Below, in pieces: positions 36,776-38,140 of a stretch of 64,000 bases of DNA. Source of the stretch: Ectothiorhodospira lacustris (GTDB lineage: Bacteria; Pseudomonadota; Gammaproteobacteria; Ectothiorhodospirales; Ectothiorhodospiraceae); contig NZ_JAJNQN010000006.1 of NCBI RefSeq assembly GCF_022227845.1, positions 1 through 64,000 on the forward strand, in the 5' to 3' direction. The notes under the pieces were generated by a model. It had not been told where the DNA came from. It did no database searches and was given only the letters and a program-made list of their open reading frames with translations. The translations under genes were made by a program, and so were the position numbers. Positions within the stretch are counted from its first letter, which is position 1; each line of letters starts with the position of its first letter.

Positions 36776-36815
36776 GCCGGGGTTGGGGTGAGGGGGTGGG
36801 AACTCTTCATCACGG

Positions 36816-36842
36816 TTAGCACTCCAACCTCGCGAGTGCTAA
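36816..36842. promoter_or_regulatory. Perfect CIRCE operator (HrcA site) upstream of rpoH
   Basis: TTAGCACTC (36816-36824), a 9-nt spacer, and GAGTGCTAA (36834-36842) make a perfect copy of the CIRCE element, the binding site of the HrcA repressor. It stands 41 bp upstream of the rpoH ATG. HrcA usually controls groESL and dnaK; here it would control a sigma factor. Confidence 0.93.
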
Positions 36843-36883
36843 ACTCGCAGCATTCCGCTTGGAATTGGGGAGGATCGCAATCC

Positions 36884-37741
36884 ATGACAACCGCACTGAC
36901 TCCGGCAGCCAGCCACCTTGCTGTCCCGGTCGGGGATCTGGACAGCTACATCTCGGCCGTCATCCGGCTGCCGGTACTGGAGGCCGAGGAAGAGCAGGCC
37001 CTGGCCCGCCGCCTGCGGGACGAACAGGACCTGGAGGCCGCCCGCAAGCTGGTGATGCATAACCTGCGCTTTGTGGTCCATATCGCCCGCGGCTATTCCG
37101 GCTACGGCCTGAATCTGGGTGACCTGATTCAGGAAGGCAACATCGGCCTGATGAAGGCGGTCAAGCGCTTTGATCCGGACATGAATGTGCGCCTGATCTC
37201 CTTTGCCGTCCACTGGATCCGGGCCGAGATCCATGAATTCGTGCTGCGTAACTGGCGCATCGTCAAGGTGGCCACCACCAAGGCCCAGCGCAAGCTGTTC
37301 TTCAACCTGCGTGGCGCCAAGCAGCGTCTGGGTTGGTTCAGTCAGGATGAGGTGGAGACCGTGGCCAATGACCTGGGGGTATCCGCCCGGGAAGTGATGG
37401 AGATGGAGTCCCGCCTGGCCGGCCGTGACGTATGTTTTGATCCGGAACCGGATGATGAAGGTACGTATACCGCCGCCCCGGCGGATGTGCTGATGGATCA
37501 CGAGGGTGATCCGGCGACGTTGATGGAACGCACCGATTGGGACAGTTATCACCAGGCCCGCCTGCAGCAGGCTCTGGCCGCCCTGGACGAGCGCAGCCGG
37601 GCCATTCTGGCGCGCCGCTGGCTGGCGGAGGAGAAGGCGACCCTCCACGAACTGGCGGCGGAGTACGGGGTGTCGGCGGAGCGGATTCGGCAGCTTGAAA
37701 GCAATTCCATTCGCAAGTTGCGTCAGGCGATGGCGGCTTAA
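36884..37741 (+). CDS. rpoH: RNA polymerase heat-shock sigma factor RpoH
   Basis: A 285-residue sigma-32 (E. coli 284). Region 2 is marked by [37 protein letters not shown] and the -10 recognition helix [19 protein letters not shown], the RpoH box by [11 protein letters not shown], and region 4 by [22 protein letters not shown] precedes the ATG at 36884. It lies upstream of the convergent ftsX-ftsE-ftsY genes, a conserved neighbourhood. Confidence 0.97.
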
Positions 37742-37756
37742 CTCCGGCTCCAGATA

Positions 37757-38090
37757 CTCGTCACTCCCGCGAAGGCGGGAGTCCAGGGTTTGTGAATCTG
37801 TCACTGGATTCCCGCTTCCGCGGGAATGACGTGGGACTTTGCGGGGATGACGCGAGACTTCCATGGGGATGCCGTGGGATTTTCATGGGAATGACGTGGG
37901 ACTTTGCGGGAATGCGTCATTCACTCGTCACTCCCGCGAAGGCGGGAGTCCAGGGTTTGTGAGTCTGTCACTGGATTCCCGCTTCCGCGGGAATGACGTG
38001 GGACTTTGCGGGGATAGCGCGGGACTTCCATGGGGATGACGCGGGACTTCCATGGGAATGCCGTGGGATTTTTCGAGGATGCGTGAGGCT
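37757..38090. repeat. Repeat cluster B with 167-bp tandem duplication
   Basis: Two near-identical segments begin at 37757 and 37924 (period 167 bp). Each contains one REPIN-like pair (37759-37831 and 37926-37998) followed by short units of the type GACGTGGGACTTTGC and GGGACTTCCATGGGGAT. No gene is seen in 37742-38140. Confidence 0.85.
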
Positions 38091-38140
38091 TTACGGTAAC
38101 GCGTGAGGCTTTCGCGGGAATGGGTGTGTTTGGAATATGC

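Follow-up and report, generated by a model that had tools for sequence, protein, structure and literature searches.

Repression by HrcA is usually presented alongside activation by sigma-32, and sigma-32 of Escherichia coli is regulated mainly after transcription. A CIRCE, the operator of HrcA, was reported upstream of the sigma-32 gene rpoH of Geobacter sulfurreducens in 2004 (Genome Biol 2004, 5:R90, PMC545781); in its accessible text, that report cites Permina and Gelfand 2003 for beta-, gamma- and epsilonproteobacteria, and this earlier survey may already have listed rpoH. Another precedent is the P3 promoter of E. coli rpoH, which, according to the accessible text of PMC8103513, is read by sigma-E and in this respect resembles the locus described here.

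The window, by which we mean the whole 64-kb stretch of DNA analysed, carries a CIRCE of the form TTAGCACTC-N9-GAGTGCTAA with no mismatches, ending 41 bp before the rpoH start codon (Table 1). The preliminary description had placed a perfect CIRCE at this distance from rpoH, and the sequence, the coordinates and the RpoH profiles all bear this out. No second CIRCE with three or fewer mismatches was found elsewhere in the window, and none of 100 dinucleotide-preserving shuffles contained such a match. Shuffles of the window, of the box position and of the upstream regions ruled out a chance origin of the CIRCE and of the placement of the -35 box discussed below.

Table 1. Coordinates of observed and putative features at the rpoH locus of the window.
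Feature	Position	Strand	Basis
CIRCE (HrcA operator)	36816..36842	+	perfect inverted repeat; motif scan and shuffles
Putative sigma-E-type -35, GGAACTC	36799..36805	+	sequence; GAAC position conserved at rpoH CIRCEs
Putative sigma-E-type -10, TCCAA	36823..36827	+	starts with the last two bases of the CIRCE left arm (TC), 17 bp past the -35
Possible sigma-70 extended -10, TGCTAAACT	36837..36845	+	CIRCE right arm plus flank; weak in the window
Ribosome-binding site, GGGGAGGA	36867..36874	+	sequence
rpoH, sigma-32, 285 aa	36884..37741	+	profile matches

The open reading frame downstream of the operator was identified as RpoH by TIGR02392 (404.6 bits, cut-off 323.1) and NF005143 (417.6 bits, cut-off 241), and sigma-70 regions 2 and 4 were matched within it (PF04542, PF04545). 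It is preceded by a cbb3-oxidase maturation cluster and followed, on the opposite strand, by ftsX, ftsE and ftsY. By eye, the gap between rpoH and ftsX (37755-38110) contains two near-identical palindromic repeats (CACTCCCGCGAAGGCGGGAGTCC...), resembling REP elements, together with many short variants.

The genome (3.28 Mb, 99.93% complete) was searched for hrcA and for further CIRCE copies, as the preliminary description had proposed. It encodes one hrcA (PF01628, E 4.1e-67, over the cut-off), adjoining ORFs read by eye as grpE and dnaK, so the proposed wiring of HrcA to rpoH, which the lack of an hrcA gene would have contradicted, survives this search. The genome also has one RpoE-family gene (C23:127175, E 7.5e-92). 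Two CIRCEs with three or fewer mismatches are present in the genome, the rpoH site and a second one at C7:55098-55124, which lies 66 bp ahead of a groES (Cpn10) match at C7:55191. Since none was found before hrcA or dnaK at this threshold, the motif-based HrcA regulon comprises groES(L) and rpoH only, and HrcA would thus reach dnaK and grpE via sigma-32. By eye, the region upstream of the genome's rpoE (G000:C23:126400-129600) contains GAACTT-16-TCCAT, which falls outside the strict sigma-E pattern used below and is perhaps a self-regulated sigma-E promoter.

Within the family of the window, a CIRCE with two or fewer mismatches was present in 46 of 47 genomes, mostly two in each, and 23 of 32 loci contained rpoH with the CIRCE immediately upstream, although these loci were nearly all picked by their CIRCE and so speak to its placement rather than its frequency. 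At ten same-family rpoH loci (L004, L008, L012, L015-L017, L022, L023, L030 and L032), the right arm carries a recurrent one-base change, to GACTGCTAA or GACTGCTAG; this variant is perhaps a tuned, weaker operator.

For a wider comparison, 140 genomes from 139 families were drawn evenly from the class, inferred from named matches to be Gammaproteobacteria as broadly defined. Of these genomes, 130 had rpoH, 105 had hrcA and 106 had an RpoE match (99 above the cut-off). The second genome of the window's own family (G006) was excluded from most counts, leaving 129 rpoH genomes, one per family, and a CIRCE was counted if it lay within about 420-450 bp ahead of rpoH. At three or fewer mismatches, a CIRCE preceded rpoH in 88 of 97 genomes with hrcA compared to 5 of 32 without it (Fisher 2.5e-15, a value that, like the one given below, exaggerates independence because the families are interrelated); at two or fewer mismatches, the counts were 83/97 and 4/32. 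Among shuffled rpoH upstream regions, 1 of 2600 contained a CIRCE. These counts support by comparison the preliminary proposal that HrcA and sigma-32 are wired in series, a proposal that had nonetheless overlooked the promoter described below, and they answer, for one sample of this class, its remark that the extent of CIRCE near rpoH is not well described.

No CIRCE was found at the examined rpoH copy in 9 of the 97 genomes with hrcA. One of these nine (G076) has two rpoH copies, and the count used the copy on C289, which lacks a CIRCE, while the copy on C325 carries one with a single mismatch (C325:154-180). Conversely, hrcA went undetected in five genomes whose rpoH is preceded by a CIRCE with three or fewer mismatches (L256, L181, L209, L248 and L178), which may reflect recent loss of the gene, a failure to detect it or some other factor recognising the site. 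Such retention is what would be seen if the CIRCE at rpoH were a relic without present function, but the operator is absent (more than three mismatches) from the other 27 of 32 hrcA-less genomes, is kept by nearly all of those with hrcA, and is free of mismatches in 47 of 98 of the latter (G006 included), which makes a relic extremely improbable.

In one further genome (G054, locus L210), which has four CIRCEs and no detected RpoE, two tandem CIRCE-like repeats about 5 bases apart precede rpoH. In other classes of the phylum, a CIRCE with three or fewer mismatches was found at rpoH in 2 of the 33 genomes examined from 53 listed, counting one rpoH copy per genome; hrcA status was checked for the two carriers, which belong to the same family and both have hrcA.

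The sigma-E promoter consensus is GGAACTT, a spacer of 15-17 bp and TCnnA. GGAACTC-17-TCCAA in the window fits this consensus with one -35 mismatch, and a GGAAC common to the same-family upstream regions at a fixed distance led us to read it as a promoter. The sigma-E pattern occurs at three places in the 64-kb window, counting both strands, one of them being the rpoH promoter; a single match is therefore weak, and the argument rests on comparison. From that comparison, we consider it probable that the rpoH element is an HrcA operator merged with a promoter, with HrcA gating both sigma-E- and sigma-70-driven transcription.

GAAC was found at positions -17 to -13 relative to the CIRCE in 63 of 93 rpoH loci, and at -15 in 50 of them, compared to a mean of 1.5 and a maximum of 7 in shuffles. 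In these 63 fused loci, the spacer between GGAACTT and the TC of the left arm was 16 bp in 50, 17 bp in 10 (including the window), 15 bp in two and 14 bp in one, and the -10 forms were TCTAA (18), TCTCA (11), TCTTA (6), TCCAA (5) and TCAAA (4), with the rest rarer. The third base of the CIRCE spacer, which would be the last base of TCnnA, was A in 57 of the 63 fused loci, 13 of the 30 other rpoH CIRCEs and 8 of 27 groES CIRCEs. The groES control comprised the best 30 loci of 138 genomes with a match, 27 of which had a CIRCE with three or fewer mismatches; none of these 27 had the fused -35 box, and their spacers mostly begin with A and C.

Of the 30 rpoH loci that are not fused, 9 have a sigma-E-type promoter in tandem, directly upstream of the CIRCE, so that a fused or tandem motif was present at 72 of 93 rpoH CIRCEs. 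All 72 came from the 82 genomes with an RpoE match above the cut-off and none from the 11 without (Fisher 5.8e-9), a genome with a sub-cut-off match (G157) being counted as RpoE-negative; the motif was missing in 10 of the 82 RpoE-positive genomes with a CIRCE. When the position of the CIRCE was ignored, the strict sigma-E pattern was recovered in 56 of 89 upstream regions with both hrcA and a CIRCE (shuffle mean 1.1), in 3 of 9 with hrcA and no CIRCE, and in 1 of 5 with a CIRCE and no hrcA. A scan of named genomes for a CIRCE and rpoH codons, which forms an uneven sample, returned at least 118 stretches, at least 113 with rpoH and 5 without; among the named rpoH loci listed, 80 were fused, 3 tandem and 30 neither. 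Aromatoleum, Dyella, Methyloversatilis and Rhodanobacter are among the listed loci with the GGAACT box, and Nitrosomonas (L079, L084) and Polynucleobacter (L076, L083) among those with a CIRCE and no box.

The sigma-70 extended -10 consensus is TGn-TATAAT. The third base past the right arm is T at 82 of 93 rpoH CIRCEs compared to 4 of 27 groES CIRCEs, and TA[AG]n[AC]T is present at 77/93 and 2/27, respectively. In most relatives, the right arm and its flank, TGCTAAAAT, would read as a sigma-70 extended -10, whereas the corresponding bases in the window match 4 of the 6 positions of the -10 consensus, fall below the threshold of the consensus scan and are a weak match. The third-flank T is equally frequent in genomes with rpoE (72/82) and without it (10/11), as expected of a sigma-70 promoter.

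This independence from rpoE would also suit the plain CIRCE operator of the preliminary description, with HrcA repressing a conventional sigma-70 promoter ahead of rpoH and the GGAACT box playing no part, as would the 30 of 93 rpoH CIRCEs without a fused -35 and the 21 of 93 that lack the tandem arrangement as well. An incidental box, however, is hard to reconcile with the fixed 16-17 bp spacing, with an incidence far above the shuffle maximum, with its absence from the groES CIRCEs or with its restriction to genomes with rpoE, and we regard this arrangement as quite improbable.

The analysis establishes the operator, what accompanies it in the genome, how far it is conserved and that it co-occurs with hrcA and rpoE; from these observations we infer which promoters are used, where transcription begins, that HrcA binds and depends on GroEL, and in which direction it regulates, as follows. 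At the merged operator and promoter, sigma-E RNA polymerase would read GGAACTC and TCCAA and start transcription ~6-8 bases past the -10, near the junction of the CIRCE spacer and right arm, while the right arm (TGCTAAnnT) may serve a weaker sigma-70 promoter. Once bound to the CIRCE, HrcA would mask the -10 elements of the sigma-E and sigma-70 promoters along with the start region, and this overlap would block both promoters; occlusion would be the simplest mode of repression for HrcA at rpoH.

The repeat could alternatively work in the mRNA, as a leader stem-loop or thermosensor, since it can pair with itself in the centroid structure of 36816-36930. The folding of three leaders, however, was no better than that of shuffles (z -0.24, 0.90 and 1.49), no Rfam match was obtained, transcripts begun at the sigma-E start would lack the left arm, and the CIRCE tracks hrcA across genomes. 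An RNA-level role was rejected on the folding and Rfam results, and we give it next to no credence.

In Bacillus subtilis, HrcA depends on GroEL. By analogy, GroEL occupied with unfolded protein would leave HrcA released from the rpoH element, and rpoH would then be transcribed weakly by sigma-70 and strongly once envelope stress frees sigma-E. The resulting sigma-32 would induce chaperones, GroEL would recover, and HrcA would close the loop. The same wiring could be driven by HrcA as the temperature sensor itself, with the operator answering heat directly rather than free GroEL. The HrcA proteins of Campylobacter jejuni and Helicobacter pylori are from another class. That of C. jejuni has been described as an intrinsic thermosensor and, in the accessible text of PMC10696704, that of H. 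pylori as temperature-dependent; our data fit either sensor equally, and we hold direct sensing by HrcA at this element to be unlikely.

Because the operator holds a sigma-E-type -10 and, in most relatives, a sigma-70-like -10 as well, the merged element would form a node joining envelope stress, HrcA and sigma-32. If it works as read, the sigma-32 gene is a transcriptional target of HrcA in most sampled families with hrcA, and sigma-E must pass the HrcA gate to drive rpoH. Two stress alarms thus appear to converge on one short DNA stretch common to many relatives, and, on this reading, several cultured species would offer a concrete promoter for testing; Aromatoleum tolulyticum (L073) and Methyloversatilis thermotolerans (L068) are cultured carriers of the fused arrangement.

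We further propose, tentatively and at somewhat less than even chances, that the merged 44-bp sigma-E/HrcA element was the ancestral rpoH control of the class, integrating envelope stress (sigma-E), free GroEL (HrcA) and basal sigma-70 transcription, with strong induction following AND-gate logic, and that, once hrcA had been lost, it left its remnants in the P3 region of E. coli and in the rpoH promoters of Pseudomonas-like genomes without hrcA. No hrcA was found in ten further genomes of the class that were tested. In three of these, from one family (L312, L313 and L315), rpoH is preceded by GGAACTT-16/17-TCAGA and then CAGTGCTAnACT, which lies where the CIRCE right arm would be, but one base nearer; a TGCTAnACT box is thus found at near-CIRCE geometry beside a sigma-E promoter, and from its sequence the arrangement looks like a decayed element. 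The idea that genomes losing hrcA generally keep a sigma-E promoter was rejected, the strict pattern being present in only 2 of 27 upstream regions lacking both hrcA and a CIRCE (shuffle mean 0.4, largest 2), and the proposal of remnants therefore rests on few genomes. If true, it would offer one account of how the rpoH promoters of relatives without hrcA may have arisen.

A CIRCE at rpoH was thus already known, while its merger with a sigma-E promoter and its breadth across the class appear unreported in the open literature surveyed; our search, which had the 2003 survey outside its reach, returned no description of either. As in the window, G. sulfurreducens has a perfect CIRCE shortly ahead of rpoH (its -51) and another at groESL, but it differs in having a further CIRCE at hrcA-grpE-dnaK-dnaJ, where this genome has none, and the accessible text of the report leaves a sigma-E promoter at rpoH unmentioned (PMC545781). 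Two loci near this Geobacter-type arrangement, L093 (Thermodesulfobacteriota) and L134, are also without the GGAACT box.

In E. coli K-12, the strict pattern recovers P3 as GAACTT-16-TCTGA at -120 of rpoH. Unlike the window, however, E. coli rpoH has no CIRCE (best match, 7 mismatches), and the hrcA profile search of control genomes gave no E. coli match; in the window, the sigma-E -10 sits within the HrcA operator. The classical HrcA target, the CIRCE of groESL, uses the same operator and accounts for the second CIRCE of this genome. There, the CIRCE comes after a sigma-70 promoter, TTGACA-16-TATTAT, and groES CIRCEs mostly have ACC as spacer bases and CAA in the flank, unlike those at rpoH, where promoter elements lie inside the operator itself.
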